From: an uncultured Eubacteriales bacterium
GTDB taxonomy: Bacteria > Bacillota > Clostridia > Oscillospirales > Acutalibacteraceae
Direction: 5' to 3'
DNA length: 37,079 nt
Assembly: GCA_949293815.1 (NCBI GenBank)
Contig: CASFEZ010000026.1
Span: 17,686-54,764 of the forward strand
In this document: piece by piece, positions 1 to 28,056 of the stretch
Layout of the letters: every line of letters starts with the position of its first letter
Position numbering within the stretch: the stretch's first letter is position 1
The notes under the pieces: model-generated
What the model saw: the letters and a program-made list of their open reading frames with translations, nothing else
Told to the model about the DNA's origin: nothing
Database searches by the model: none
Position numbers and translations under genes: made by a program

Positions 1-116
1 TGGTGTGGTGATGGAGGACCGTAAAGCAGCGCCGGCACTTAGAGCGCGTTTTTTGCGCTCTTACGTACCGCTGCGTCTGCGGTCCGAACGAAAGTGTGTT
101 CTCCGGCACCACACCA
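1..116. other. Compact self-complementary element, possible structured RNA or small repeat
   Basis: The first ten bases (TGGTGTGGTG) are an exact inverted repeat of bases 107-116. Further nested complementarity lies inside: GGAG 13-16 with CTCC 101-104, GGACC 16-20 with GGTCC 81-85, GCAGC 26-30 with GCTGC 70-74, and a terminal hairpin AGAGCGC 41-47 with GCGCTCT 54-60. A small side hairpin GAAC 86-89 with GTTC 98-101 is also possible. The pairing would fold nearly the whole element into one branched rod on either strand. No T-run follows on either side, so it is not a simple terminator. It does not match the conserved cores I know for 5S rRNA, SRP RNA, 6S RNA or tRNA. It sits at the very edge of the window, so more of it may lie outside. 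The fold is seen; the identity and strand are unknown. Confidence 0.45.
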
Positions 117-141
117 GTCTCTTCCGGCGTCCCTTCTCAAA

Positions 142-864
142 TTATACAAATCCGAATTTTTGCTTGTTCAAAAGTAATGCACATATAATTACTGCTGCAC
201 AGAATATCAAAATTAAATACCATAGATTTTCAAGGCAAAAGCCATTCTCTAACATCAATCGGTATCCCCATGAAGCGGGAAAAATGCGCCCTATGGCTTC
301 AAGAAAATCGGGCAGCAAATCGATAGGGAACATAATCCCTGAAAGCATAATCGAGGGTAAAAACACAAGCTGCGCGATCATTGTCAACTTTGCCTGACTT
401 TTTACAGCCAAACCTAATATACTCCCAATACTCAGCGACACAATAATGTATATGGCAAGCGCAGGAAAGAAAAGCGGAAGCTGTACCGGCAAAGCCGCCT
501 CAAACAATATCGGAGCGAGGAGTAATATAATAATACAGCTGATCATTAAATGCACAAATGCAGAAAGGGACATTGTAACAAGCCCTAAATATAAAGGTAC
601 TCCATTTGCTTTATAAACCTTTTTTACATCACTTCCATAAGTTTCAATCAACGATGGCGGCAGCCCGATAAACGCTCCCATTGAAACGCTCATCACAATC
701 ATAGATTGTATCAATGTACTTCTCATTTCAGGCATAACAGAAGTAAAAATACCACCCATAAACAGAAAGAAAACAAGCGGAACGACATAGCAGGTTACCA
801 ACAAAGATTTACTGCGTATATCCAGTTTCCACTGTAATTCCACGCCATATAAAAAACCGTTCAT
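142..864 (-). CDS. ABC-2 type transporter permease
   Basis: This 240-residue integral membrane protein has about six hydrophobic segments, from residues ~20 to ~235, separated by short charged loops. That is the size and pattern of an ABC-2 family permease, the membrane half of exporters for drugs, antibiotics or lipids. It lies directly behind the ATPase gene: the ATPase stop is at 865 and this gene starts at 864, so the two are almost certainly co-translated and form one transporter. The substrate cannot be read from sequence. The reading frame is AT-rich compared with the arginine genes that follow, in line with the whole MerR-ABC cassette having a different origin. No clear rho-independent terminator follows; the next sequence downstream is the structured element at 1-116. 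Confidence 0.85.
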   Translation of the reverse strand: MNGFLYGVELQWKLDIRSKSLLVTCYVVPLVFFLFMGGIFTSVMPEMRSTLIQSMIVMSVSMGAFIGLPPSLIETYGSDVKKVYKANGVPLYLGLVTMSLSAFVHLMISCIIILLLAPILFEAALPVQLPLFFPALAIYIIVSLSIGSILGLAVKSQAKLTMIAQLVFLPSIMLSGIMFPIDLLPDFLEAIGRIFPASWGYRLMLENGFCLENLWYLILIFCAAVIICALLLNKQKFGFV

Positions 865-1677
865 TTAAGCATCCCTCCTTGCCATTTCGATAAAATGCTG
901 CTCCAGTGTGCCACGATCAACTTTAATATCTGATACATGGATTTTTTTCTGTTTTAATTCGCTCAGTAAGAAAATCAAAGTGTCTTCGATATTGTCCGTT
1001 TCAAAAGTGTTTTCTCCTTGCTGCGTCTTGATATGGATAAAATATTTTCTCCCAATCCTATCGGTCAGTTCCGAAGCTGTACCGCAAAAGGCAATATTTC
1101 CGTTATTCAGAATAGCAATGCGGTCACATAAGGTTTCTACCTCTGCCATATCGTGGCTTGCCAAGACGATTGTTTTTCCGTATGATTTGAGCTTTCGGAT
1201 TTGTTCGTGGAGCGATAGTCTTCCCTCGACATCAAGTCCCGCAGTCGGCTCATCGAGAAAAATAATATCGGGATTGCCGATAAGCGCAAGAGCAAGATGC
1301 AACCGCCTTTTCTGCCCTGCGGATAATTGTATATACTGCTTCTTCTCAATTTCTTTGATAGCAAGACCGTCAAGCATGGCATCATCAATTTTTGTTTTAT
1401 TCCATTTTGCAAACAGCTTTACAGCCTCCATTGGCTTGATATGGGCTGGTAAAGAAGAGGATTGTAGCTGAATACCCATCTTCCCGTTTACAGTAATCGC
1501 ACCACTGTCATATTGTCTCAAACCTTCGATACATTCAAGCGTTGTTGTTTTTCCTGCTCCGTTTACGCCGAGCAGAGCGAAAATTTCTCCTTTTTCAATT
1601 TGAAAATCGAGACCCTTAAGAACCATATGGCTGCCGTAGTTTTTCTTTAATTCACGAACTTGTATTGCGTCTTTCAC
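865..1677 (-). CDS. ABC transporter ATP-binding protein
   Basis: This 270-residue nucleotide-binding subunit powers the adjacent ABC-2 permease. The Walker A motif GVNGAGKTTT is near residue 38, the family signature LSAGQ near residue 118 and the Walker B region IIFLDEPTAGLD near 138, followed by the H-loop histidine in LASHDMAEVE. The last ~60 residues form the variable C-terminal extension seen in CcmA/DrrA-like exporter ATPases. The start overlaps the end of the merR gene by four bases, so translation is coupled. The operon order regulator-ATPase-permease suggests an export or self-protection system induced by a ligand of the MerR protein. The ligand and substrate are unknown. Confidence 0.92.
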   Translation of the reverse strand: MKDAIQVRELKKNYGSHMVLKGLDFQIEKGEIFALLGVNGAGKTTTLECIEGLRQYDSGAITVNGKMGIQLQSSSLPAHIKPMEAVKLFAKWNKTKIDDAMLDGLAIKEIEKKQYIQLSAGQKRRLHLALALIGNPDIIFLDEPTAGLDVEGRLSLHEQIRKLKSYGKTIVLASHDMAEVETLCDRIAILNNGNIAFCGTASELTDRIGRKYFIHIKTQQGENTFETDNIEDTLIFLLSELKQKKIHVSDIKVDRGTLEQHFIEMARRDA

Positions 1678-2477
1678 GGTTTCACCTCCTCAAAGGGATT
1701 TATTCCAAGTCCTGAAAAATAGACCTGCAAAGCTGGTTCTAAATAATCGTTAACAATTTTCTGCCTTTCTTCCCAGGCGTTTGTGGCAGTATCGATGTTA
1801 CCGACTTCCATCAATTTCGGAAGCATACTCATATCGCCATTTGTAAACTCCATAATCAAGCCCCAATATTCTTTTACAACCTGTTGGCATTTTTCGCTTT
1901 CGGGCGGTACATTTTCTTTTTGAAGCTGTATGATTTCATCACTCAGGCGGTTAAATCTGTCCATAAAATCTAAGCCGCTTTCCTTATCAAATCGGCTGCG
2001 TATATGGTCGAGCGTATCATCGTCGAAACGCTTAATCAGATAATAAGAATCATTCTGCATTTGCAGGTTGACAATAATATCCGCATACTTCTTAAAGCTG
2101 ACCGTCTGCATTTGTAAAACTTCTGCTTTTAACTGTTCTATTGCTGACAAAGAAGCCTGAAGCTGTTCTATTTTTTTGCGTATATCATCTGCCTGCTCTG
2201 CAAGAGCATTTGCAACATCAGCCGGTGTTTCCAAAGAGATCAGCCGCTCTTTTATATCGTCCAAAGAAAAGCCCAGCGATTTCAAAGATATAATCTGATG
2301 AAGCGTAATCAAATCTTTATCGGTATAAAGCCTGCGTCCGCCTTCGCTTTCTGCCGACGGGGAAAGCAGCCCTTCTTTATCGTAGTATTGCAGCGTACGG
2401 ACGGTAACTCCCATTTTCTTTGCCACTTCGCCAACTGTCATAAACCCTTGCGGAATTGCTCTGTATTTTGCCATCAT
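1674..2477 (-). CDS. MerR family transcriptional regulator
   Basis: This 267-residue regulator has an N-terminal MerR winged helix: MTVGEVAKKMGVTVRTLQYY at residues ~13-32, then a basic wing with GGRRLYTDKDL and a long coiled coil around residues 80-130. The C-terminal ~130 residues form an effector domain rich in Asp, Glu and aromatic residues, resembling TipA-like ligand or peptide-sensing MerR proteins; that subfamily call is tentative. It has no Cys-rich metal loop, so a metal ligand is unlikely. Two adjacent ATG codons (2477 and 2474) are both within reach of the AGGAGG site at 2484-2489; the upstream one is used here. It heads the operon with the ABC exporter and probably controls its own promoter. 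Confidence 0.9.
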   Translation of the reverse strand: MMAKYRAIPQGFMTVGEVAKKMGVTVRTLQYYDKEGLLSPSAESEGGRRLYTDKDLITLHQIISLKSLGFSLDDIKERLISLETPADVANALAEQADDIRKKIEQLQASLSAIEQLKAEVLQMQTVSFKKYADIIVNLQMQNDSYYLIKRFDDDTLDHIRSRFDKESGLDFMDRFNRLSDEIIQLQKENVPPESEKCQQVVKEYWGLIMEFTNGDMSMLPKLMEVGNIDTATNAWEERQKIVNDYLEPALQVYFSGLGINPFEEVKP

Positions 2478-2483
2478 TATTTA

Positions 2484-2527
2484 CCTCCTGACACCTATTA
2501 TAAATCATTACGCAGCGTCACAAACAA
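2484..2527 (-). promoter_or_regulatory. MerR-type promoter with 19-bp spacer and central dyad, plus RBS
   Basis: Reading the minus strand, a TTGTTT -35 (2522-2527) and a perfect TATAAT -10 (2497-2502) are separated by 19 bp, the over-long spacing characteristic of promoters activated by DNA-twisting MerR regulators. The spacer contains the imperfect dyad TGACGCTGCGTAA (2508-2520), centred within 2 bp of the middle of the spacer and a likely operator. A strong AGGAGG ribosome binding site (2484-2489) follows, six bases before the merR ATG. The dyad and spacing are seen; autoregulation is inferred from the family. Confidence 0.7.
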
Positions 2528-2548
2528 GACCTTTTTTAAAATTTTTGA

Positions 2549-2572
2549 GCGGCAAAGATTTTTCTTTGCCGC
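2549..2572. other. Strong 10-bp hairpin upstream of merR
   Basis: GCGGCAAAGA (2549-2558) and TCTTTGCCGC (2563-2572) form a perfect 10-bp stem with a four-base loop. The surrounding 2530-2600 is AT-rich. Neither side has a clean T-run directly after the stem, so it is a poor match to an intrinsic terminator, although it could end transcription reaching merR from higher coordinates. The rest of the gap 2478-2760 holds the merR promoter and the terminator at 2701-2740; I see no gene there. Confidence 0.4.
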
Positions 2573-2700
2573 CTTAAAGTATATATTCTTCTTTTGGCAA
2601 TATTGCCCAATTTCCATAGTGTAAATTTGTTTACTCATACAAAGTTTATTTTTCGAGGTATTTTCTCTTGCATAAAGATATCGCATGCATTTAAATAACA

Positions 2701-2740
2701 AGGTCTGCCGTGAAATTAAACAATCACGGCAGACCTGTTT
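2701..2740. terminator. Terminator hairpin downstream of the dockerin-tailed protein
   Basis: AGGTCTGCCGTGA (2701-2713) and TCACGGCAGACCT (2724-2736) form a perfect 13-bp stem around a 10-base AT-rich loop. It lies 20 bp past the stop of the minus-strand gene at 2761. The plus side is followed by GTTTT and the minus side by TTGTTATTT, so it could act in both directions. Confidence 0.7.
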
Positions 2741-2760
2741 TCATTGCAATCGGAGCAAAG

Positions 2761-3261
2761 TTATGCCAATATGCCTTCCAGAGAATCCAGTCCGGTGGCC
2801 GCGCGCAGAATCAGGCGGGCATCGGCGGAATTGACTTCGCCGGTTTGGGGGTTCAGCTTGATAATCTGCGGCTGACGCTGTTCTTCGCTGAATTCCGGCA
2901 GTTCCCCGTGGCTTACCAGCGTGGTTATCTGGTTCAGCGCATCGATTCCAAGACCCGTACCGAAGCTGTTAATGGCAACCTGCAAAGAATTGCGGTTCAC
3001 GCCAATATACAAATACCCATCCCGGTATGCCGTTGCCCAGGCATAGGAATTCAGACGGTTGGCTTCTTCCCCTAAAAGGATCCCGTCCGCCTCGCCGCTG
3101 CCCGTTGTGGGGTTTGTGATTTTGGTCGCTTTGTAATTGTCGGAATAATAGGCATTCGCCTGCATCCCATCCTCTGCCGCACCGATAAGCATCGGCATAC
3201 TGCCGCACAGCAGTGAAACACATAAAAGAAGAGAGATAAGCGAGCGAAAATATCGCTGCAT
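2761..3261 (-). CDS. Small secreted protein with dockerin-like tail, apparently internally deleted
   Basis: This 166-residue protein starts with a typical signal peptide: a basic start, then a hydrophobic core to about residue 28 ending GAAE. Residues ~35-100 contain NRLNSYAWATAYRDGYLYIG, which resembles the first blade of a secreted beta-propeller or Kelch-like protein. The chain then ends with NSADARLILRAATGLD, one half of a type I dockerin helix pair; the same phrase occurs in the dockerin of the large exoprotein at the window end. A normal dockerin has two such halves with a DxNxDG calcium loop, but here only one half remains and its loop reads LNPQTGEV. The product is far shorter than a propeller-dockerin protein should be, so a large in-frame internal deletion is inferred. 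A strong TAGGAGG site lies 7-8 bases before the ATG. Function is unknown and it may be a remnant. Confidence 0.6.
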   Translation of the reverse strand: MQRYFRSLISLLLCVSLLCGSMPMLIGAAEDGMQANAYYSDNYKATKITNPTTGSGEADGILLGEEANRLNSYAWATAYRDGYLYIGVNRNSLQVAINSFGTGLGIDALNQITTLVSHGELPEFSEEQRQPQIIKLNPQTGEVNSADARLILRAATGLDSLEGILA

Positions 3262-3420
3262 GGTAATTCCTCCTAAATTTTTTGTAATTTCAGACGCAAT
3301 TTTATATGAGGTACATCAAAAAAATACTTCAAAAATATAAACGCAAAATAAATAACCCGAGAACCTTTATCAAATTCCTGTAACATTTATCAATCCTGAC
3401 ACACTTTTTTGTGGAAAAAT

Positions 3421-3462
3421 AGAAAAAGCCGGTGCATTACCCTTTTATCGGTAACGCACCGG
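3421..3462 (-). terminator. Intrinsic terminator of the arg operon
   Basis: On the minus strand, CCGGTGCGTTACC (3462-3450) pairs with GGTAATGCACCGG (3441-3429), a 13-bp stem with one G-U pair, followed at once by CTTTTTCTATTTTTC. It lies about 95 bp past the argD stop. This is a textbook rho-independent terminator. The rest of the gap 3262-3555 holds the leader of the small dockerin-tailed gene and otherwise no recognisable feature. Confidence 0.85.
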
Positions 3463-3555
3463 TCATATGATGATATTGTGGAAAATACCAAATGGGGCAA
3501 AATAGTATTTTCGTTTGATAGGCATGACATGCGTCCTGTCACCGCACAAAATCCT

Positions 3556-4734
3556 TTATTCCTCAGCGCAAACCTCAGAAATGCAGGTTTTCAGCGTGTC
3601 AACCGCTTCTGTCAGCAGTTCCCACGGAATAGTCAGCGCGGGCAGCAGGCGCACTTTGTCTTTGGCGGTCAGCACCAAAAGACCCTTTTCCAGCGCAGCG
3701 TTGGCAATCTCTCTGCCGGGCTTTTTGCAGGCGACGCCCAACATCAGACCGCGTCCGGTGATTTCCAAAACGCCGTCTGCCCCGCTGAGCTCTTGGCGGA
3801 TATAGTCCGACTTGCGGTTGACCTCGACCAGGAGATCCGGCGTCAGGCGGGAGAGGATGTTCAGCGCACCGGCGCAGCAGACGGGATTGCCGCCGAAAGT
3901 GGAACCGTGGGTGCCCGGCTCCAGGGCGTTTTCGCATTTTTCTGAGAATACGGCAAGTCCCAGCGGCAGACCGCCGCCAATGCCCTTTGCGGTGGTGAAC
4001 AAATCGGGTTTGATGCCATAATGCATATAGGAATACAGCTCGCCGGTTCTGCCGTTGCCGGTCTGCACCTCGTCCACAATCAAAAGCAGATCGCTTTCAT
4101 CGCAAAAACGGCGCAGCCCCTTAACAAAATCATCCGAAAGTGGCACCACGCCGCCCTCGCCCTGAATGGTTTCAATCATCACCGCGCAGCACTTGTTTTC
4201 GGCGGCCAACTGTTTGACGGAATCCAAAGAATCCGGCTCAGCATAAACAAAACCGCCGGGGAAGGGACCGAAATCCTTATGGTACCCGTCCTGCCCCGTG
4301 GCCGCCAGGGTGGCAAGGGTTCTGCCATGGAAGCTGTTTTTCATGGTAATAATGGTACTTCTGCCCTCGCCGTATTTTTTGACCGAATAGCGGCGGGCGG
4401 CTTTGATGGCGCATTCATTGGCCTCCGCGCCGGAATTGCCGAAGAATACCTTTTTCATACCGGTTCTTTTGCAGAGTTCCTCCGCCAAAAGCGCGCAGGG
4501 CTCGGTATAGTAAAGATTGGAGGTATGCTGCACCTTGAGAAGCTGCGCACTGACCGCAGCCGCCCATTCCTTATCCGCCACACCGAACACATTGACGGCG
4601 ATGCCGCTGCCCATATCGATATATCGTTTGCCGTCCTCGGAAAACAGCTCACTGCCCTGCCCCTTTACAATCTGCACCGGGAAACGCGCATAGGTGGGCA
4701 TGATATATTCCTTGTCAATTGCTTTAATATCCAT
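3556..4734 (-). CDS. argD: Acetylornithine aminotransferase
   Basis: This cytoplasmic PLP enzyme of 392 residues is the usual length for the family. It transfers an amino group from glutamate to N-acetylglutamate semialdehyde to give N-acetylornithine. Class III aminotransferase landmarks are present: the cofactor-binding FGNSGAEANE near residue 96, FHGRT near 134, IVDEVQTGNGRTG near 220, and the PLP lysine in TTAKGIGGGLPLG near 250. It is the last gene of the operon, but 491 bp of repeat-bearing non-coding DNA separates it from argB, so it may depend on read-through or on a weak local promoter. The Shine-Dalgarno site before its ATG is poor. A strong terminator follows at 3421-3462. The related activity on succinyl-diaminopimelate (dual ArgD/DapC) is possible but not visible in sequence. 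Confidence 0.95.
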   Translation of the reverse strand: MDIKAIDKEYIMPTYARFPVQIVKGQGSELFSEDGKRYIDMGSGIAVNVFGVADKEWAAAVSAQLLKVQHTSNLYYTEPCALLAEELCKRTGMKKVFFGNSGAEANECAIKAARRYSVKKYGEGRSTIITMKNSFHGRTLATLAATGQDGYHKDFGPFPGGFVYAEPDSLDSVKQLAAENKCCAVMIETIQGEGGVVPLSDDFVKGLRRFCDESDLLLIVDEVQTGNGRTGELYSYMHYGIKPDLFTTAKGIGGGLPLGLAVFSEKCENALEPGTHGSTFGGNPVCCAGALNILSRLTPDLLVEVNRKSDYIRQELSGADGVLEITGRGLMLGVACKKPGREIANAALEKGLLVLTAKDKVRLLPALTIPWELLTEAVDTLKTCISEVCAEE

Positions 4735-4800
4735 CAGGAAACCAGCTTTCTATTTTAAATTTCGTAAATTCAAATAAGTCCCACAGGCGTCTTCCTCTGT

Positions 4801-4826
4801 GTAGGGGCGGGTCTTGTGCCCGCCCG
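4801..4826 (+). repeat. GC-rich dyad repeat, copy A
   Basis: This copy begins GTAGGGGCGGGTCTTGTGCC and continues into CGCCCG. It contains the perfect dyad GGGCGGG-n7-CCCGCCC, so each copy can fold as a short hairpin. It is in the opposite orientation to copies B and C. Similar REP-like intergenic repeats are common in many bacterial genomes. Confidence 0.75.
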
Positions 4827-4970
4827 GGGGAGAGGCAGAGAAGGCGGATTTCCATAATCCCCGGGAAAGGGCATAAAAGATCCGGTTTCCTGTCAAAACC
4901 ATCAAACAAAAATCGGGAGGTTATATTCACGCCCAGGCTGCGGTGGTACAGAGGGATACCATCTACGCTC

Positions 4971-4997
4971 CCGGGCGGGCACAAGACCCGCCCCTAC
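4971..4997 (-). repeat. GC-rich dyad repeat, copy B
   Basis: This is the reverse complement of copy A, with the core GGGCGGGCACAAGACCCGCC. It is followed by CTAC and then GCTGTGGAAA, a tail nearly the same as that of copy C (GGAGTGGAAA), so the repeat unit is longer than the core. With copy A it could form a larger stem. Confidence 0.75.
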
Positions 4998-5165
4998 GCT
5001 GTGGAAATGGGGAGGGGCAGAGAATTTCGGTGCCGCACATGCCTCGGAAGACGCTCCGTGTTTTCTGAAGGGTATACATTTGGGTTTGTGGGATTTGAGA
5101 GGGGATTTTTGGTTTGCTGCCACGCCAGCCCCTCGCCGGTATGGGGTATTTTTCTTCCACGCCCT

Positions 5166-5191
5166 CGGGCGGGCACAAGACCCGCCCCTAC
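5166..5191 (-). repeat. GC-rich dyad repeat, copy C
   Basis: This has the same 26-base core and orientation as copy B, 195 bases further on. It lies about 35 bases past the argB stop on the operon strand, where its hairpin could influence 3' end stability or partial termination between argB and argD. That role is inferred from position only. Confidence 0.75.
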
Positions 5192-5225
5192 GGAGTGGAA
5201 ACAATCAATTATCCTATATAAAGGT

Positions 5226-6089
5226 TTAATTTTTAGTAAACATCGTACCCAGGCCTTCGTCGGTCAAAAGCTCCATTAACAGCGAATGGGGCACCCGACC
5301 GTCGATAACAAACACCTTTTTAACGCCCGCTTTCAGCGCTTCAATACAGCATTCGACTTTGGGGATCATGCCGCCGGCAATCACGCCTTCGGCAATCAGC
5401 CGCTTGGCGGTGCGGATATTCAATTTGGAAATCAGCGAGGAGGGGTCGTCTTTATCCATCAGTACGCCGCTTTCGTCGGTAACGGAAATCAGGCATTCCG
5501 CTGAAAGCTTTCCCGCCAGCTCCGCCGCCGCTGTGTCGGCATTGATATTATATACATTGCCCTCGTCGTCGTAGCCGATGCCCGCCACCACGGGAATATA
5601 CCCGCAGGCCAGCAAATCTTCCACCGGCTGGGAGCGAATGGCGACCAGTTCGCCCACATAGCCAAGTCCGAGTTCCGGATTTTTAGGACGGGCTTCCATC
5701 ATTTTGCCATCCAGACCGCAAAGACCGATGGCTCTGCCGCCTTTGTTATTGATTAACTTGACCAGATCCTTGCAGACCTTACCTGCCAGAACCATTTGCA
5801 CAATCTCCGCCGTTTCCCGGTCGGTGACACGCAGACCGTTTTTGAACTCGCTCTTTTTGCCGATCTTTTTCAGCATTTCGGAAATTTCCGGACCGCCGCC
5901 GTGGACGAGAACCACATTCATACCCACCTGCCGCAACAGGCAGATGTCCTCCATGACCGCATCCTTGAGCGTTTCGTTCACCATGGCGCTGCCGCCGTAT
6001 TTAATCACAACGGTTTTTTTGTTGTATTTTTGAATCAAAGGCAGGGCGTGTACCAGCACTTCCGCCCGAAGCGCATTCGACATTTCCAT
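5226..6089 (-). CDS. argB: Acetylglutamate kinase
   Basis: This cytoplasmic amino-acid kinase of about 287 residues phosphorylates N-acetylglutamate with ATP, the second step to ornithine and often the arginine-inhibited step when ArgJ recycles acetyl groups. Family motifs are the N-terminal VVIKYGGSAM near residue 28, the glycine-rich LVHGGGPEI near 62, the substrate loop GLRVTDRETAE near 87, and the C-terminal nucleotide-site VIAGGMIPKVE near 234. The frame could begin at a TTG at 6095, but AGGGAG sits only 3 bases before that codon and 9 before the ATG at 6089, so the ATG is preferred. It follows argJ by about 45 bases in the same operon. Confidence 0.95.
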   Translation of the reverse strand: MEMSNALRAEVLVHALPLIQKYNKKTVVIKYGGSAMVNETLKDAVMEDICLLRQVGMNVVLVHGGGPEISEMLKKIGKKSEFKNGLRVTDRETAEIVQMVLAGKVCKDLVKLINNKGGRAIGLCGLDGKMMEARPKNPELGLGYVGELVAIRSQPVEDLLACGYIPVVAGIGYDDEGNVYNINADTAAAELAGKLSAECLISVTDESGVLMDKDDPSSLISKLNIRTAKRLIAEGVIAGGMIPKVECCIEALKAGVKKVFVIDGRVPHSLLMELLTDEGLGTMFTKN

Positions 6090-6134
6090 ACGCAAGGTCT
6101 CCCTTATTTATAAAGTCAATATTTTATCTATCTG

Positions 6135-7355
6135 TTATGTTCGATAATCCCCATTGATTTTTACATAATCGTAGGTCAAATCACAGCCCCAGGCTTCAGC
6201 GACCGCCTCGCCATCGTGTAAATCGATATTCACATCGATTTCCTTTTCCAAGAGGATTTCCTTCGCCTTTTCCTCTGAAAACGGCACACCCGCCCCAGCC
6301 TTACAGACGGTGATTTCGCCTTTGGCGGATGCAAAGCCTACATCAATTTTCGCAATATCCAGCGCTGCGCCGCTGTAGCCGAGGGCACAGAGCACCCGCC
6401 CCCAGTTGGCGTCCGCACCGAACATGGCTGCCTTAAACAGCGAAGAGCAGATTACGCTTTTTGCTGCGGTTTTGGCGGTTTGCTCGTCCCTGGCGTTTTT
6501 GACCTTGCAGGTCAACAGCTTGGTTGCGCCTTCGCCGTCCCCGGCAATCATCCGGCAGAGCTTCACGGTGACCCGATGGAGCGCTTCGCAGAACACCGCG
6601 AAATCCCCGTCCTCAGCGGTTATTTCCGGGTTACCCGCCAGACCGTTGGCCATGACGGTGACCATATCGTTGGTAGAGGTGTCGCCGTCGATGCTGACCA
6701 TATTAAAAGAAGATTTGACATCCTCACTCAGCGCCTTTTGCAAAAGCGCAGGGGCAATGGCGCAGTCGGTCGTAATAAAAACAAGCATGGTCGCCATATT
6801 CGGGTGAATCATGCCGCTGCCCTTGGCGATGCCGCCCAAACGGCAGGGTACGCCGCCGACCGTAAAGGAAACCGCCGCCTCTTTGGCGATGGTGTCTGTG
6901 GTCATAATCGCCTGAGCCGCCGCAAGCCCGGTGGTGGATAGATTCGCGCAGAGGTTATCCATACCCTCCGCAATCGGATCAAGGCTGAGGGGCTGACCAA
7001 TCACGCCGGTAGAGGCGACCAGCACGTCCGAAGCGGGAATCCCCAGATGCTGCGAGACCAGTTCGCACATACCCTCGGCAATTTCAATGCCGTTTGCGTT
7101 GCAGGTGTTGGCGTTGCCGCTATTGCAGATCAGAGCAGAAGCAAAGCCATCCGCCAGATGGTTTTTGGTGACGGTCAGGGGCGCGCCTTTCACCAGATTG
7201 GTGGTGTATACCGCCGCCGTAGCTGCCCGCTGCTCGCTTACGATCAGCGCCAAATCTTTTTTAACTTTATTTTTCCGAATCCCGCAATGCACGCCGCTCG
7301 CCCGAAAGCCCTTGGCGGCGCACACGCCGTTTTCGATTGCTACAATCTCACTCAT
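6135..7355 (-). CDS. argJ: Bifunctional glutamate N-acetyltransferase / ornithine acetyltransferase
   Basis: ArgJ moves the acetyl group from N-acetylornithine to glutamate, recycling it, and in bifunctional forms also primes the cycle from acetyl-CoA. The enzyme self-cleaves before a threonine nucleophile, seen here as Thr189 in HPNMATMLVF, giving alpha and beta chains. Other landmarks are the N-terminal ICNSGNANTC near 77 and the C-terminal GANWGRVLCALGYSG. An upstream in-frame start at 7394 would overlap argC. The ATG at 7355 has AAGGAAAGG before it and gives 406 residues, the usual length, so it is chosen. Finding argJ without a visible argA or argE fits the cyclic arginine pathway. Confidence 0.95.
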   Translation of the reverse strand: MSEIVAIENGVCAAKGFRASGVHCGIRKNKVKKDLALIVSEQRAATAAVYTTNLVKGAPLTVTKNHLADGFASALICNSGNANTCNANGIEIAEGMCELVSQHLGIPASDVLVASTGVIGQPLSLDPIAEGMDNLCANLSTTGLAAAQAIMTTDTIAKEAAVSFTVGGVPCRLGGIAKGSGMIHPNMATMLVFITTDCAIAPALLQKALSEDVKSSFNMVSIDGDTSTNDMVTVMANGLAGNPEITAEDGDFAVFCEALHRVTVKLCRMIAGDGEGATKLLTCKVKNARDEQTAKTAAKSVICSSLFKAAMFGADANWGRVLCALGYSGAALDIAKIDVGFASAKGEITVCKAGAGVPFSEEKAKEILLEKEIDVNIDLHDGEAVAEAWGCDLTYDYVKINGDYRT

Positions 7356-21883: not shown

Positions 21884-21921
21884 ATCCCCGACTTCGTTTT
21901 GAATCGAGTCGGGGATTTTTG
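21884..21921. terminator. Bidirectional terminator between the GH31 gene and carB-dapF
   Basis: ATCCCCGACT (21884-21893) pairs exactly with AGTCGGGGAT (21907-21916), followed by TTTTTGTT on the plus strand and TTATTTATG on the minus strand. It is 17 bases beyond the carB-dapF stop and about 220 beyond the GH31 stop. Confidence 0.85.
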
Positions 21922-21932
21922 TTGGAACAAAA

Positions 21933-24900
21933 TCAATACTCAACTTCGCCGCGGTAGATGAGTTTGGCGGGACCGGAGAGGATCATGCCTTCGTCGGTGT
22001 AACAGACGGTCAAATCGCCGCCTTTGACCTTGATGGTAATATCCTCATTCTTTTTGCAGTAGCCGTTGAGCACCGCAACCGCCACGGCGGCGCAAGCGCC
22101 GGTTCCGCAAGCGGGGGTTTCGCCGTTGCCGCGCTCGTAGACACGCATTTTTAAGGTGGTGGAATTGATCACATCCACAAATTCGGTATTCACGCGCTCC
22201 GGGAACAGGGAGGCGTTTTCAAATTTCGGACCGATTTCATCAATATGCAGCGCGTCAATTTTATTGGCAAAGACCACGCAATGGGGATTGCCGATGGATA
22301 CACAGTTGATTTTATAGGTCGCGCCATCCACAATCATCGGATAATTGATCAGCGTTTGCGCATCGGTGGAAACGGGGATGGCTTTTGCATCAAAGACTGC
22401 TTTGCCCATATCCACGCTGGCAGAGCTGACCTTGTCGTTAATCGTATAGACCCGCACTTCCTTCACGCCGCTGGCAGTATCGATGGCCATGATATCCTTT
22501 TTCACCTTGCCGCTGTCATACAGATATTTTGCGACACAGCGGATGCCGTTGCCTGCCATTTTGCCCTCGGAACCGTCCACATTATATACGCGCATTTCCG
22601 CGTCGGCTATTTTGGACTTCTTTATCAAAATCAATCCATCCGCGCCGATACCGTAGTTGCGGTCACAGAAGGTCACGCTCAGCGCTTCGGGATAGGTTAT
22701 TTTGGCGTCTGGGTCATCAATCACAATATAGTCGTTGCCCGCACCCTCCATTTTAACAAAATCCAGTTTCATGGGTTCAGAGCGCAGAGCGTTGATGTCT
22801 ATCAGCTCGGTATTGCCCTGATTATAGCGCCCCGTGATAATATCCGCCAGCACATTGGCGGTATCCAGCGAAGTAACGCAGGTAATCGACAGCTCCAGCG
22901 CCCGCTTGTGCAAAAGGCGGTACTCACCAATGGTGGAATCATAGAGCGCGCCGGTGTAAATGATATAGCAGATAGCGCCGCTTTCGAGCAAATCGAAAAT
23001 TTCACTGCTTTCGGTCATGCTCTTCACTTCGGTCACTTCAAAGCCATAGGAACGAATGGTTTCCGCCGTGCCGCTGGTGGCATAGAGCTTCATGCCCAAA
23101 TCATCAAACTTTTTCACCAAGGGGAACAGCTCCCAATGGTCATGCTCGTCTACGCTGATAAACACGCCGCTCCGGTCGGTTTCGTTATGGGTCACAATTT
23201 TGAAGCCTGCGGAGGTTAAGCCCTTAAACAGCGCTTCGTTGATATTGCTGCCGATGCCCAAAACCTCGCCGGTGGATTTCATTTCCGGGCCGAGAATGGA
23301 GTTGGCATCGGTCAGTTTTTCAAAGGAGAACACCGGCACCTTTACGGTAAAATAGGGCGGCGTTTTATAAAGTCCCGTGCCGTAGCCCAAGTCCTTGAGC
23401 TTTTTGCCAATCATCACTTTGGACGCCAAGTCTACCATGGGCACGCCGGTTACCTTGCTGATATAGGGAATGGTGCGCGATGCGCGGGGGTTGACCTCAA
23501 TGACATACAGCTCATTCTTATAAATCAGGTATTGGATATTGACAAGCCCCTTGGTGCCCAGCGAACGCGCCAGCTTTTCGGACGAATCGATGATGGTGTG
23601 CAGCATCTTATCGTTGAGATTGTAGGGCGGATAGACGGCAATGGAATCGCCGCTGTGTACGCCTGCGCGCTCCACGTGCTCCATGATACCGGGAATCAGC
23701 ACATCGTCTCCGTCGGAAATCACATCCACTTCCAGCTCCGTGCCCATCATATATTTATCAATCAGCACCGGGTTCTCAATTTTACCGGAGAGAATGATAT
23801 TCATATAGTTAATGACATCCGCCTTTTCGTGGGCGATAACCATATTCTGCCCGCCGATAACATAGGAGGGACGCAGCAGCACCGGATAGCCGAGTTTTTC
23901 GGCGGCAGCCAGCGCTTCATCCATGGTCAGAACGCCCATACCCCGGGGACGGCGGATGTTGAATTTTTCCAAAAGTTCATCAAACTTTTCCCGATCCTCC
24001 GCCGTATCGATGCCCTCCGCCGAGGTGCCGAAAATGCGGATACCCTGGGAATCCAGGAACTTCGTCAGTTTTATGGCGGTCTGGCCGCCGAACGCAACCA
24101 CTACACCCTCGGGCTGCTCGACCTGAATGACATTCATCACATCTTCCGGGGTCAGCGGCTCAAAATACAGCCGGTCGGAGGTATCGTAATCTGTAGAAAC
24201 GGTTTCGGGGTTGTTATTGATAATAATAACCTCATACCCCTCCTCCTGCAGCGTCCACACACAGTGGACGGAGGAATAGTCGAACTCAATGCCCTGACCG
24301 ATACGAATCGGACCGGAGCCGATAACGATGATGCGGGGCTTGGTATGGTTGCGAATAAAGTGCCGCGCCTCGCAGAAATCGTCGTAGGTGGAATAGAAAT
24401 AGGGCGTTTCGGCGTCAAATTCCGCGCCGCAGGTATCTACCATTTTATAAACGGCGTTCCGATGTTCCAGCTCCTTGCAGCCACTAATTTCTTTTAAGGA
24501 CTTATCAAGGTAGCCTAATTTTTTGCCGTGCAGGTACTCTTCCGGCGTCAGGCTGCCTTTTCCGGCAATGGACACCTCATAGTCCGCCAATTTTTTCAGC
24601 TTATTTAAGAAAAAGCGATCCACACGGGTAATATCAAAAATTTCATCGATGCTCACGCCGTCTTTGATGGCCTCAAAGATGGTAAACAGACGGATATCAT
24701 TGATGTCTTTGAGCCGCTCCCGAATGGGTCTGTCATCGTTGCTGACCGGACGGTTCAGCGTGTCAAGAGAAATTTCCGCGCCACGCACCGCTTTCATAAT
24801 GGCCATTTCAAAAGAGGGCGCAATGCTCATCACTTCGCCGGTGGCTTTCATCTGGGTGCCTAAGGTTCGGTTGGAGCCGATGAATTTATCAAAAGGCCAT

Positions 24901-25976
24901 TTCGGGAATTTGACCACGCAATAATCCACTGTCGGCTCAAAGCAGGCGCAGGTTTTGCCGGTGATGTCGTTGCGGATTTCATCCAGCGTGTACCCAAGGG
25001 CAATCTGCGCCGTGATTTTTGCAATCGGGTAGCCGGTCGCCTTACTGGCCAGCGCCGAGGAGCGGGAAACACGGGGGTTGACCTCAATTACCGCGTACTC
25101 GAAGGAATCGGGATTTAACGCAAACTGACAGTTGCAGCCGCCCACAATGCCCAGGGCGGAAATGATCTCCAGCGAGGCTTTGCGCAGCATTTGAAATTCC
25201 TTATCCGCCAGCGTCAGCGCAGGCGCGACCACGATGCTATCACCGGTATGTACGCCCACCGGGTCGAAGTTTTCCATGCTGCAAACGGCAATCACATTGC
25301 CCGCGCTGTCACGCATGGTTTCAAACTCAATCTCTTTCCATCCGAAAATATATTTCTCAATCAAAACCTGACAAATCGGGGACATATCCAGACCGGTACG
25401 GGCGATAACTCTGAGTTCCTCCGGATGATACGCCACGCCGCCGCCGGCACCGCCCAGGGTAAACGCGGGGCGCACAATGACCGGATAGCCAATCTGGTCG
25501 GCAATTTTCAGCGAATCTTCAACCGTATTGGCGATTTCGGATGGAATGGTCGGCTGACCGATGGCAGCCATGGTATCCTTGAACATTTTGCGGTCTTCTG
25601 CTTTGTCGATGGCTTCGGCATCCGTGCCCAGAAGACGGCAGTTCATTTTCTCCAGATAGCCCTCTTTGGAGAGCTGCATGGCAATGGTAAGACCGGTCTG
25701 ACCGCCAAGACCTGCCAAAAGAGAATCGGGGCGTTCTTTTTCGATAATGCGCTTCACGGTTTCCGCCGTCAAGGGCTCTAAGTAAATTTCATCCGCCAGC
25801 GCCTTATCGGTCATAATGGTTGCGGGGTTGGAGTTGACCAGTACTACATTGACGCCTGCCTTTTTCAGCACGCGGCAGGCCTGCGCCCCCGCATAGTCAA
25901 ACTCGGCGGCCTGTCCTATAACAATGGGACCGGAGCCAATAACCAAAACTTTTCGAATATTTTCTGCCTTAGGCAT
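21933..25976 (-). CDS. carB-dapF: Fused carbamoyl-phosphate synthase large subunit and diaminopimelate epimerase
   Basis: This is one open frame of 1347 residues. Residues 1-1068 are a full-length CarB: two ATP-grasp halves (first from VLVIGSGPIVIGQAAEFDYA, second from IIVIGSGPIRIGQGIEFDYS near 560), an oligomerisation region between them, and a C-terminal MGS-like allosteric domain ending at INALRSEP. Residues 1069-1347 (from the ATG at 22772) are a complete 279-residue DapF, with both catalytic cysteines: Cys1147 in GNGIRC and Cys1290 in ETPACGTGAC. CarB makes carbamoyl phosphate from glutamine-derived ammonia, bicarbonate and two ATP; DapF turns LL-diaminopimelate into the meso form for lysine and peptidoglycan. 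The linker is essentially absent. No Shine-Dalgarno site precedes the internal ATG, so DapF is probably made only as part of the fusion. The start overlaps carA by eight bases (ATGCCTAA). Confidence 0.95.
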   Translation of the reverse strand: MPKAENIRKVLVIGSGPIVIGQAAEFDYAGAQACRVLKKAGVNVVLVNSNPATIMTDKALADEIYLEPLTAETVKRIIEKERPDSLLAGLGGQTGLTIAMQLSKEGYLEKMNCRLLGTDAEAIDKAEDRKMFKDTMAAIGQPTIPSEIANTVEDSLKIADQIGYPVIVRPAFTLGGAGGGVAYHPEELRVIARTGLDMSPICQVLIEKYIFGWKEIEFETMRDSAGNVIAVCSMENFDPVGVHTGDSIVVAPALTLADKEFQMLRKASLEIISALGIVGGCNCQFALNPDSFEYAVIEVNPRVSRSSALASKATGYPIAKITAQIALGYTLDEIRNDITGKTCACFEPTVDYCVVKFPKWPFDKFIGSNRTLGTQMKATGEVMSIAPSFEMAIMKAVRGAEISLDTLNRPVSNDDRPIRERLKDINDIRLFTIFEAIKDGVSIDEIFDITRVDRFFLNKLKKLADYEVSIAGKGSLTPEEYLHGKKLGYLDKSLKEISGCKELEHRNAVYKMVDTCGAEFDAETPYFYSTYDDFCEARHFIRNHTKPRIIVIGSGPIRIGQGIEFDYSSVHCVWTLQEEGYEVIIINNNPETVSTDYDTSDRLYFEPLTPEDVMNVIQVEQPEGVVVAFGGQTAIKLTKFLDSQGIRIFGTSAEGIDTAEDREKFDELLEKFNIRRPRGMGVLTMDEALAAAEKLGYPVLLRPSYVIGGQNMVIAHEKADVINYMNIILSGKIENPVLIDKYMMGTELEVDVISDGDDVLIPGIMEHVERAGVHSGDSIAVYPPYNLNDKMLHTIIDSSEKLARSLGTKGLVNIQYLIYKNELYVIEVNPRASRTIPYISKVTGVPMVDLASKVMIGKKLKDLGYGTGLYKTPPYFTVKVPVFSFEKLTDANSILGPEMKSTGEVLGIGSNINEALFKGLTSAGFKIVTHNETDRSGVFISVDEHDHWELFPLVKKFDDLGMKLYATSGTAETIRSYGFEVTEVKSMTESSEIFDLLESGAICYIIYTGALYDSTIGEYRLLHKRALELSITCVTSLDTANVLADIITGRYNQGNTELIDINALRSEPMKLDFVKMEGAGNDYIVIDDPDAKITYPEALSVTFCDRNYGIGADGLILIKKSKIADAEMRVYNVDGSEGKMAGNGIRCVAKYLYDSGKVKKDIMAIDTASGVKEVRVYTINDKVSSASVDMGKAVFDAKAIPVSTDAQTLINYPMIVDGATYKINCVSIGNPHCVVFANKIDALHIDEIGPKFENASLFPERVNTEFVDVINSTTLKMRVYERGNGETPACGTGACAAVAVAVLNGYCKKNEDITIKVKGGDLTVCYTDEGMILSGPAKLIYRGEVEY

Positions 25977-27036
25977 TTTCCGTCCCTCCCATCATGGCAA
26001 TAAACCGGTCAAAAATATATTCCGTATCCTTGGGACCTGAACAGACCTCCGGGTGGAACTGCACCGAAAACGCACCATAGTCCGGGTAATCGATGCCCTC
26101 GCAGGTGCCGTCATTGGCGTTGATATAACTCTGCACACCGTGCTTAACGCTGTCGGCAACCACCGCATAGCCGTGGTTCTGGCTGGTGATATAGGTGCGC
26201 GTTCCGCCTATCTCCCGCACCGGCTGGTTGACACCGCGGTGACCGTATTTTAATTTAATGGTTTGTCCGCCGTCCGCAAGTCCCAACAGCTGATGCCCCA
26301 GGCAGATGCCGAAGATTGGTTTTTTACCCAGAAGTTTTCTAAGCTGTTCGATTTCATAAACATTCTCCGCCGGGTCGCCCGGACCATTGGACAGCATAAT
26401 GCCGTCCGGATTGCCCCGAAGAATCTCCTCGGCAGAGGCGCTCGCGGGCAGCACGGTCACTTCGCAGCCGCGCTGCGCCAGCTCGCGGATAATATTGCGC
26501 TTGGCGCCGTAGTCCAAAAGCGTAACGGCATATTTCTTTTCGCCTTTGGCGGGCACGATGTATTTTTCCTTTGTGGTAACGCTTTTCACCGCGTCCTGAA
26601 TGATATAATCCTGAATCGGCGTCAGGTCGGCGGGAACTTCATCGCAGATAACCGCGTTCATGACACCGTGTTCACGAATCAGGCGCGTGACGCTGCGCGT
26701 ATCGATTCCGTACAGCCCGACAATACCGCGCTGTTTTAAAAAGGTATCCAAATCATATTGGCAGCGGAAATTCGAGGGCGTGTCGCACCATTCGCGCACC
26801 ACATATCCCTTCACGCAGCATTCGCCCTCAAAATCGTCCTCAATGATGCCGTAATTGCCAATCAGGGGAAAGGTCTGCATGACGATCTGCCCATAGTAGC
26901 TCGGGTCGGTCAGCGTTTCAATATAACCGCACATACCCGTGGTAAACACCAACTCACCAAGCGTATTGCCGTCCGCGCCAAAGCGGACGCCTTCGAAAAC
27001 CGTACCGTCGCCAAGAACGAGATAGGCTTTTTTCAT
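25969..27036 (-). CDS. carA: Carbamoyl-phosphate synthase small (glutaminase) subunit
   Basis: CarA hydrolyses glutamine and passes ammonia through a tunnel to CarB. The 355 residues are the usual length. The N-terminal half (~1-170) is the CarA-specific domain, with GMCGYIETLTDPSYYGQ near 34. The C-terminal half is a class I glutamine amidotransferase with nucleophile Cys245 in FGICLGHQLLG and the partner His and Glu in VQFHPEVCSGP near 330. It starts 18 bases after argF with a GGAGG site and overlaps carB-dapF by eight bases, so stoichiometric synthesis is likely. Confidence 0.97.
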   Translation of the reverse strand: MKKAYLVLGDGTVFEGVRFGADGNTLGELVFTTGMCGYIETLTDPSYYGQIVMQTFPLIGNYGIIEDDFEGECCVKGYVVREWCDTPSNFRCQYDLDTFLKQRGIVGLYGIDTRSVTRLIREHGVMNAVICDEVPADLTPIQDYIIQDAVKSVTTKEKYIVPAKGEKKYAVTLLDYGAKRNIIRELAQRGCEVTVLPASASAEEILRGNPDGIMLSNGPGDPAENVYEIEQLRKLLGKKPIFGICLGHQLLGLADGGQTIKLKYGHRGVNQPVREIGGTRTYITSQNHGYAVVADSVKHGVQSYINANDGTCEGIDYPDYGAFSVQFHPEVCSGPKDTEYIFDRFIAMMGGTENA

Positions 27037-27054: not shown

Positions 27055-27969
27055 TTATTGGCGTGATTGAGAAAGCAGCTTAACAAGCACGGCTTTCTGC
27101 GCGTGCAGGCGGTTTTCCGCCTCCTCAAAAATTTCATCGGCATGCGCCTCGAGCACTTTTCCGGTGATTTCCTCTTCCCGGTGGGCAGGCAGGCAGTGCA
27201 GCACCATGGCGTCCGGTTTGGCAATCGCCATCACGCTGTCGTTAATCTGATAGTTCTTGAAAATCTTTTTGCGCTCTTCCGCTTCGCCTTCCTGCCCCAT
27301 GGATGCCCAAACATCGGTATACAAAACATCCGCACCTGCGGCTGCTTCTTCAATATTGCCGGTGCAGAGGAATTCGCCGTTCGACTTTGCCCACTGCATC
27401 AGTTCCTCATCGGGGCGGTAATCGTCCGGGCAGGCGATGGCAACCTGCATACCGGTAGTAATACCGCCTGCAATCAGGGAGTTTGCCATATTATTGCCGT
27501 CGCCGATATAGCAGAGCTTCAGACCTTCCAGCTTGCCCTTGTATTCACGAATGGTCATCAGATCGGCAAGCACCTGACAGGGGTGGCAGTAATCCGTAAG
27601 ACCGTTGATAACCGGAATCGAACCGCACTGAGCCAGCGCCTCCACTTCCTCCTGGTCGAAAGTGCGGATCATGATACCGTCCAAATAACGGGAAAGGACG
27701 CGGGCGGTATCCTGAATCGGTTCGCCTCTGCCGATTTGTAAATCGTGCGAACTCAAAAACAGAGCCGTGCCTCCCAGGTCATACATGCCGACCTCGAAGC
27801 TGACTCTGGTTCTTGTAGAAGATTTTCTAAAAATCATACCTAGGGCTTTTCCCTGTAAAATCGGATGGGGAATCCCCTGCTTTTTCTCCTTTTTTAATTG
27901 ATCCGCTGTGTCGAGAATGTCTAAAATCTCTTCTTTCGACAAGTCGGCGAGTTTCAAAAGATGTTTCAT
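27055..27969 (-). CDS. argF: Ornithine carbamoyltransferase
   Basis: ArgF condenses carbamoyl phosphate with ornithine to citrulline in the cytoplasm. The 304 residues carry the carbamoyl-phosphate motif KSSTRTRVSFEVG near 48, GLTDYCHPCQVLADL (HPxQ) near 125, the DVWASMGQE loop near 220 and the ornithine-site cysteine in MVLHCLPAHR near 260. The frame can be extended upstream to 28026, but the ATG at 27969 has GAGG at good spacing and matches the family N-terminus MKHLLKLADLS, so it is used. It is first in argF-carA-carB-dapF, placing the enzyme that consumes carbamoyl phosphate next to the one that makes it. Confidence 0.96.
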   Translation of the reverse strand: MKHLLKLADLSKEEILDILDTADQLKKEKKQGIPHPILQGKALGMIFRKSSTRTRVSFEVGMYDLGGTALFLSSHDLQIGRGEPIQDTARVLSRYLDGIMIRTFDQEEVEALAQCGSIPVINGLTDYCHPCQVLADLMTIREYKGKLEGLKLCYIGDGNNMANSLIAGGITTGMQVAIACPDDYRPDEELMQWAKSNGEFLCTGNIEEAAAGADVLYTDVWASMGQEGEAEERKKIFKNYQINDSVMAIAKPDAMVLHCLPAHREEEITGKVLEAHADEIFEEAENRLHAQKAVLVKLLSQSRQ

Positions 27970-28005
27970 ACTATATCCTCGCTTTTCATCTAATCTGTTG
28001 TCGCG

Positions 28006-28056
28006 CGTATTCATTGCATTATGCATAATATTACATCTTTTTCAGGCGCTTGTCAA
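28006..28056 (-). promoter_or_regulatory. argF-carAB promoter with ARG-box-like sequence
   Basis: On the minus strand TTGACA (28051-28056) and TAATAT (28028-28033) are exactly 17 bp apart. Just downstream, near the expected start, lie ATGCATAATGCA and TGAATAC (28026-28008), which resemble ArgR half-sites but do not form a clean TGAATA...TATTCA box. Promoter confidence is high; the operator is tentative. Confidence 0.7.

Follow-up and report, generated by a model that had tools for sequence, protein, structure and literature searches.

The window analyzed here, a stretch of 37,079 nucleotides from an uncultured Eubacteriales bacterium (contig CASFEZ010000026.1 of assembly GCA_949293815.1), carries on its minus strand a carB-dapF fusion gene of 1347 codons (21933..25976), which joins in one open frame CarB, the large subunit of carbamoyl-phosphate synthase (CPSase), and a domain resembling DapF, the diaminopimelate epimerase. 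The epimerase part is predicted to be dead, because the first of its two catalytic cysteines is an alanine and Cys-to-Ala mutants of DapF are almost inactive. Fused CarB proteins form one clade, in which the first cysteine disappeared about a dozen times, and the domains that lost it keep nearly all the residues that hold diaminopimelate (DAP). The reading that we favor, with close to an even chance of being correct, is that an ancient bifunctional fusion was repeatedly converted to a CPSase bearing a non-catalytic DapF domain, which retains its pocket and serves as a ligand-binding regulatory module.

The Fusion Protein and Its Epimerase Site

The NCBIfam model for CarB (TIGR01369, 1385.2 bits) covers residues 1-1048 of the fusion protein, and the full-length model for DapF (TIGR00652) covers residues 1072-1345 with 273.4 bits, the cut-off being 114.65; an earlier note on this DNA had described an in-frame fusion of the two enzymes, and the single open frame with full-length matches to both bears this out. 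On the minus strand, the CarB part (residues 1-1068, 22773..25976) includes the MGS-like allosteric domain (residues 949-1035, 22872..23132, Pfam PF02142) and ends in the junction peptide ...NTELIDINALRSEP (22773..22826), which is followed at once by the DapF-like domain (residues 1069-1347 plus the stop codon, 21933..22772); the domain positions also confirm the almost linker-free junction after the allosteric domain that the note had proposed. The junction, NTELVDIN.MR, is found in close variants throughout the fusions and across families. An assembly or frameshift artefact was ruled out, since the fused frame recurs in many genomes.

Both catalytic cysteines had been reported as kept, which holds for the second alone. 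The first motif of the window reads GKMAGNGIRC, as opposed to MCGNG.RC in DapF, and the alignment places Ala1141 (codon GCA, 22554..22556, minus strand) opposite the catalytic Cys of solved DapFs, namely Cys73 of Haemophilus influenzae and Cys83 of Corynebacterium glutamicum; the second, Cys1290 (codon TGC, 22107..22109, minus strand), lies in the motif PACGTGAC, as in the ACGTGAC of DapF, and corresponds to Cys217 and Cys221, respectively. Cys73/Cys217 and Cys83/Cys221 are given as the catalytic pairs of the two enzymes in passages of PMC3581254 and PMC5296763; in the latter, either C83A or C221A leaves C. glutamicum DapF almost inactive, and a passage of PMC4227774 reports no epimerization by Escherichia coli DapF with both cysteines changed. 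The DAP-binding positions N13, N64, N75, N162, N195, E213, R214, and T224 are all present in the window, their C. glutamicum equivalents being N15, N74, N85, N159, N194, E212, R213, and T223 (passages of PMC5296763).

Distribution of the Fusion

In a first set of 40 genomes the fusion was found in 20, i.e., the source genome and 19 others, one of which (G006) has its frame cut by the end of a contig; all seven genomes of the genus within this set carry it. A sample of 394 genomes of the order added at least 107 rows with the fused frame (counted by hand), spread over many families, while 51 of the 391 genomes sampled from the class have a long fused frame (also a hand count; fused frame of at least 644 amino acids, E-value up to 1e-80). 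Among 199 genomes of the phylum, the fused frame is present in eight, including the source, each with a second match. Named carriers include Ruminococcus sp. FC2018, with both cysteines, Neglectibacter sp. X58, with Gly at the first Cys, many metagenome-assembled genomes (MAGs) of Oscillospiraceae and Ruminococcaceae, and three MAGs assigned to Treponema or Spirochaetaceae (L107, L132, and L135), whose fusion has lost the first Cys and may reflect lateral transfer or a binning error.

The cysteine states discussed below refer to 120 fused genomes, the 20 of the first set and 100 of the further rows, leaving out G204, G073, G118, G226, G133, G052, and G323; fused genomes found only in the class or the phylum sample are outside this count. 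Together with 38 named loci, four of which share their domain sequence with four of the 120, these genomes give 158 fused domains (154 distinct). The set was picked for the fused frame and for closeness to the window and cannot yield a rate of tail loss.

Single Origin and Repeated Loss of the First Cysteine

In a CarB tree rooted on E. coli as the outgroup, from which rows with fewer than 900 CarB residues were dropped (151 of the 158 left) and which contains 28 of the 29 unfused CarBs (G008, L284, is absent), all 151 fused CarBs group in a single clade (support 100); trees were built with FastTree and carry local support only. One unfused CarB with a related C-terminus, L276 of genome G026, nests inside the fused clade, and the genome search returned zero DapF matches in G026, which is best read as loss of the whole DapF tail.

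At position 73 of the domain, that of the first Cys, the 158 fused DapFs have Ala in 80, Cys in 41, Gly in 23, Ser in 10, and Phe in four; position 222, the second Cys, is Cys in 156 and Ser in two. Both cysteines are present in all 72 standalone DapFs. Assuming no regain, the first Cys must have been lost 12 times on the CarB tree (11 times when branches below 90 are collapsed and siblings pooled) and the second twice, in one case in a lineage already devoid of the first. The DapF-domain tree, which was midpoint-rooted, agrees with the CarB tree in outline: one large dead clade of 91 rows (support 99) contains the window and further losses are placed among the Cys/Cys fusions, with 10 changes in total, at least four of which are forced by well-supported branches.

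The DapF tree places five of the 72 standalones among fused rows, with support that is weak in part; they are L055 (G014), L057 (G022), L061 (G011), L127, and the standalone copy of L245, all Cys/Cys, and a fused DapF may have been split again into standalone copies. L245 (G250, 1-6687) itself shows a tandem arrangement, with a Cys/Cys carB-dapF fusion directly followed by a standalone dapF on the same strand.

Cysteine State and Other Routes to meso-DAP

Meso-DAP can be formed also by meso-DAP dehydrogenase (ddh), which bypasses DapF. Both cysteines are kept in 22 of the 120 fused genomes, 20 of which have the fused copy as their sole DapF match; the other 98 have lost a catalytic Cys, the first in 97 and only the second in G029. 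Another dapF match is present in 69 of these 98; these are match counts, 14 copies from 13 of the genomes having been read, all Cys/Cys. A ddh match was found in 24 of the remaining 29, and an alternative route is thus visible in 93 of the 98. The ddh search covered 80 of the 120 genomes, namely all 51 that are Cys/Cys or have no other dapF, plus 29 of the 69, nine of which also have ddh; the match in G293 consists of two partial pieces. Over 115 rows, Cys state and a spare meso-DAP route are associated with p = 2.6e-6 by Fisher's exact test. A phylogenetic test of the proposal that Cys is kept only where there is no other meso-DAP route was not significant, the independent pairs on the tree being too few.

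Neither another dapF nor ddh was found in 11 of the 20 genomes in which a Cys/Cys fusion is the sole DapF match, so that the epimerase in use there is probably the fused domain. The source genome (2.46 Mb, 96% complete) is of the other kind: a second dapF with both cysteines (G000:C4:77605-78441) adjoins an LL-DAP aminotransferase gene, dapB is also found, and ddh has no match in this genome. The earlier note had proposed that the dose of DapF is tied to arginine and pyrimidine control and had suggested looking for another dapF; the intact copy refutes the dosage idea, as the fused half is almost certainly inactive, and of the pathway link only the general idea is left, in the form of a still unproven hypothesis of a sensor. 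Another carA-carB pair, which is unfused, lies close to rseP, dxr, and frr on the same contig, so that the fused CarB in the arginine-type operon coexists with another CPSase.

A carA match on the same strand was seen in 41 of the 44 loci with enough upstream DNA; 17 loci have an argF-like gene upstream of carA and all are Cys-lost, and of the 27 loci without it, 12 are Cys-lost and 15 are Cys/Cys. The 17 do not count as separate cases, most of them coming from a single clade of close kin; four of the argF matches are weaker (218-250 bits versus at least 476 in the other 13) and possibly represent another carbamoyltransferase.

Pocket Conservation, Selection, and Predicted Structure

Apart from Asn13, the residues contacting DAP hardly vary among the 118 domains in which a Cys was lost: Asn64 is kept in 117, Asn75 in 113, Asn162 in 117, Asn195 in 118, Glu213 in 118, Arg214 in 118, and Thr224 in 117. 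His164 is also conserved, in 116. Considering 13 pocket positions, with position 73 excluded, all are intact in 74 of the 118, or in 98 when Asn13 is ignored.

The dead tails are under purifying selection, somewhat relaxed. Their median ratio of nonsynonymous to synonymous substitution rates (dN/dS) is 0.11 (26 of 40 pairs computable), compared with 0.048 for the attached CarB; in the Cys/Cys fusions (12 of 14 pairs) the medians are 0.052 for DapF and 0.048 for CarB. The nine dead pairs with DapF identity of at least 0.90 range from 0.025 to 0.12. Over all pairs, the ratio of DapF dN to CarB dN is 1.35 in the dead and 1.26 in the Cys/Cys fusions.

An AlphaFold2 model of residues 918-1347 has a mean predicted local distance difference test (pLDDT) score of 87.2, the DapF part scoring 86-98 by blocks of ten. 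In the fold search, the best Protein Data Bank (PDB) match by E-value was 9mro, whose bound ligands are DAP analogues (root mean square deviation 1.8, template modeling score by target 0.92); the DapF mutants 2q9h (C73S) and 2q9j (C217S) are also close.

The CarB Part

CarB residue numbers and site assignments are those of the E. coli enzyme. Fourteen of the 15 positions checked in the ATP-grasp and catalytic regions are unchanged in at least 150 of the 151 fused CarBs, the exception being His754, mostly Lys; because of this conservation, the fused CarB should work as a CPSase. At the ornithine site, all 151 retain Glu783, Asp791, and Thr1042, while Glu892 is in most cases replaced by Val and Tyr1040 by Cys, as they are in the window, and the positions of the nucleotide site are variable. 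On this comparison, the classical effector sites of the fused CarB appear partly remodelled.

Proposed Mechanism and Alternative Explanations

According to the reading favored here, a bifunctional CarB-DapF fusion would have arisen once, in an ancestor of many Clostridia; the DapF half would then have lost one catalytic Cys in most descendants, nearly always the first, and mostly in genomes having another source of meso-DAP, either a standalone dapF or meso-DAP dehydrogenase. The non-catalytic domain would have been retained together with its fold and nearly all the residues that hold DAP. DAP, in its LL or meso form, or a similar amino acid may bind the cleft, the lobes closing as they do in DapF, and the closure would be passed on to the neighboring allosteric domain of CarB, so that the supply of carbamoyl phosphate follows the status of the lysine and cell-wall pathway. 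The argument is that repeated loss of catalysis, with the pocket retained and, in most cases, another meso-DAP source at hand, would be expected if CarB profits from binding by the domain and not from turnover; the bifunctional ancestor, the binding, the identity of the ligand, and the coupling to CPSase are what we infer from these patterns. That a DapF fold may act without catalysis is illustrated by E. coli DapF with both cysteines replaced, which still binds and activates RppH (passages of PMC4227774). The more specific version, a covalent DAP sensor on CPSase that evolved through about a dozen parallel losses of catalysis and couples the cell wall and lysine to arginine and pyrimidines in many gut Clostridia, is put forward tentatively, our confidence in it being limited.

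Several observations weigh against this reading. The link between Cys state and a spare meso-DAP route is not significant over the 6-8 independent pairs on the tree, and ddh is found also in nine of the 20 genomes whose sole DapF match is a Cys/Cys fusion. In five Cys-lost genomes (G391, G273, G206, G309, and G029) neither another dapF nor ddh was found; G391 has no dapB match either, and G273 and G206 are 57% and 84% complete, but G309 (99% complete) and G029 (90%), in which dapB is present, are harder to accommodate; in the fused DapF of G029 it is the second Cys that is missing, the first being intact. Asn13, equivalent to Asn15 of C. glutamicum, is Asp in 30 of the 118 dead domains, which may indicate a shift of ligand in part of the set. 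Selection is relaxed in the dead domains, as shown by the median dN/dS of 0.11 versus 0.052, and in close pairs (identity of at least 0.90) DapF dN is about 2.4 times CarB dN in nine dead pairs versus about 1.0 in five Cys/Cys pairs, these medians having been computed by hand from rounded values; some dead pairs may also include branches from before the domain lost its activity. This relaxation in close pairs moves slight weight from a regulatory module to a neutral relic. Finally, the orientation of DapF relative to the MGS domain is uncertain in the AlphaFold2 model (predicted template modeling score 0.64, linker pLDDT about 55-58).

The dead domain might instead be a structural or partner module, which stabilizes or oligomerizes CarB, or forms dimers with the active standalone DapF and thereby recruits or regulates it, the conservation of the pocket simply following from that of the fold. 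This is unlikely but deserves to be taken seriously, since DapF is a dimer (passages of PMC5296763) and the effect of E. coli DapF on RppH depends on contact and not on catalysis (passages of PMC4227774). Furthermore, a P-E-x-L motif at domain positions 28, 29, and 31 has a pattern that would suit an interface: it is near-invariant in the fused domains, both dead (Pro in 117, Glu in 113, and Leu in 109 of 118) and Cys/Cys (39, 40, and 39 of 40, respectively), and more variable in the standalones (54, 21, and 35 of 72). However, in 29 of the 98 Cys-lost genomes there is no second DapF match that could serve as the partner, the conserved residues include side chains that contact DAP, and CarB can manage alone, as the G026 lineage lost the tail and kept CarB.

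A new catalytic activity relying on the second Cys only, such as proton exchange, elimination, or racemization of another substrate, would account for the retention of that Cys in 116 and of Glu213 in all 118 of the dead domains, and enzymes of the DapF fold with other substrates or other catalytic residues are known, including O-ureidoserine racemase and PhzF, found in the fold search, and the histidine racemase HisR (passages of PMC11602996). We consider it improbable, as the first Cys was replaced by Ala, Gly, Ser, or Phe, with no single new residue, the pocket still resembles that of DAP, and single Cys mutants of both C. glutamicum DapF and HisR lose most of their activity (passages of PMC5296763 and PMC11602996).

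A neutral relic, i.e., a harmless DapF read-through in slow decay, draws on the raised dN/dS, on the faster change of close pairs relative to CarB than in the Cys/Cys fusions, on the variation at position 73 and Asn13, and on the lineage that dropped the tail. Nevertheless, it is very improbable: close pairs still have dN/dS of about 0.03-0.12, DAP-contact residues are almost invariant over deep divergence, and in the set of 40 genomes, for which CarBs of both kinds, fused and unfused, were collected, there is a single nested tail loss compared with 20 fused genomes. The related suggestion of the earlier note, a lineage-specific stop-loss kept because harmless, fits poorly with one origin, a spread over many families and orders, and a tail under purifying selection.

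An active bifunctional CPSase/epimerase in the source organism, which the full-length DapF domain and the Cys/Cys relatives (sole DapF match in 20 genomes, 11 of them without ddh) might suggest, is hardly credible given the Ala at the first catalytic Cys, the near inactivity of C83A and C221A in C. glutamicum (passages of PMC5296763), and the intact standalone dapF beside the LL-DAP aminotransferase gene.

Operon and Neighboring Genes

On the minus strand the gene order is argF (ornithine carbamoyltransferase, 27055..28026), carA (CPSase small subunit, 25969..27036), which shares 8 bases with the start of the gene that follows, and the fusion; with argF and carA preceding it on the same strand, the arginine-type operon of the original description stands. 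A promoter-like TTGACA-17-TAATAT lies 5′ of argF (28028..28056, minus strand) and a terminator-like hairpin with a T-rich tail 3′ of the fusion stop (21887..21908, minus strand); both are consensus matches only, and terminator-like matches in the window are not more frequent than in shuffled sequences. An Rfam scan of the window gave zero matches at the gathering threshold. Two carbohydrate-active neighbors on the plus strand are unrelated to the fusion: the protein at 30887-32377 matches endoglycoceramidase in part and below the cut-off, and that at 19279-21663 matches alpha-xylosidase and alpha-glucosidase models, likewise below the cut-off.

As the earlier note had stated, no separate start of DapF is evident, the window having no Shine-Dalgarno (SD)-like motif directly 5′ of the internal ATG (22772-22770); separate translation from this ATG was rejected for the window, and is possible in few relatives only. 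An SD-like motif with a start codon near the junction was found in 13 of the 158 fused genes by a wide search and in 12 by a narrower one (seven of 40 Cys/Cys, five of 118 lost). An AGGAG-type motif precedes the internal ATG at the junctions of L046, L210, L214, L217, and L251, all Cys/Cys fusions, and free DapF might also be made from internal starts in several Cys/Cys fusions.

Significance and Comparison with Known Systems

The two reactions share no metabolic step, as was correctly pointed out before. Carbamoyl phosphate leads to UTP, and from this to the UDP-sugar carriers to which meso-DAP becomes attached; since UTP feeds these carriers, coordination between CPSase and DAP would make sense, and if the tail senses DAP it would provide a hard-wired link from peptidoglycan precursors to carbamoyl phosphate. 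The family also looks like a natural replicate of the evolution from enzyme to regulator, one fusion event having been followed by about 12 losses of the same residue. For annotation, the window tail scores well above the DapF cut-off and counting it as an epimerase can mislead, while in the Cys/Cys lineages ignoring fused proteins would miss the sole DapF match.

DapF and CarB are known enzymes, and it is also known that DapF can act on a partner without catalysis and that pseudoenzymes can be regulators. Among the matches listed from open-licence PMC full text, a scope outside which most subscription journals and preprints fall, no description of the fusion or of its inactivation was found, and it is unmentioned in the passages of PMC9026213 on DapF, CarB, fusions, and Ddh; protein databases that record domain architectures may well show the fusion.

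Compared with DapF (TIGR00652, PF01678), the window tail has the same fold, full length, second catalytic Cys, and DAP-binding residues, but differs in the Ala replacing the first Cys, in the fusion to CarB, and in the argF-carA context. Its CarB is complete like other members of TIGR01369, with 14 of the 15 checked positions unchanged and carA directly upstream; unlike these, it adds a 279-residue DapF-like tail after the allosteric domain, and Glu892 and Tyr1040 of the E. coli ornithine site are Val and Cys. Metabolic pseudoenzyme regulators are, in general, dead copies of an enzyme that keep the pocket, the active copy being elsewhere; the window tail differs in being fused to an enzyme of another pathway. 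The E. coli DapF-RppH system (passages of PMC4227774) is similar in that a DapF fold acts by contact, with dispensable catalytic cysteines; there, however, DapF is an active, separate moonlighting enzyme, whereas here a domain predicted to be dead is covalently bound to its candidate target. The engineered C73S and C217S DapFs (2q9h, 2q9j) likewise keep the fold with one catalytic Cys missing, but they were made in the laboratory, while in the fusions the first Cys was replaced naturally, about a dozen times.

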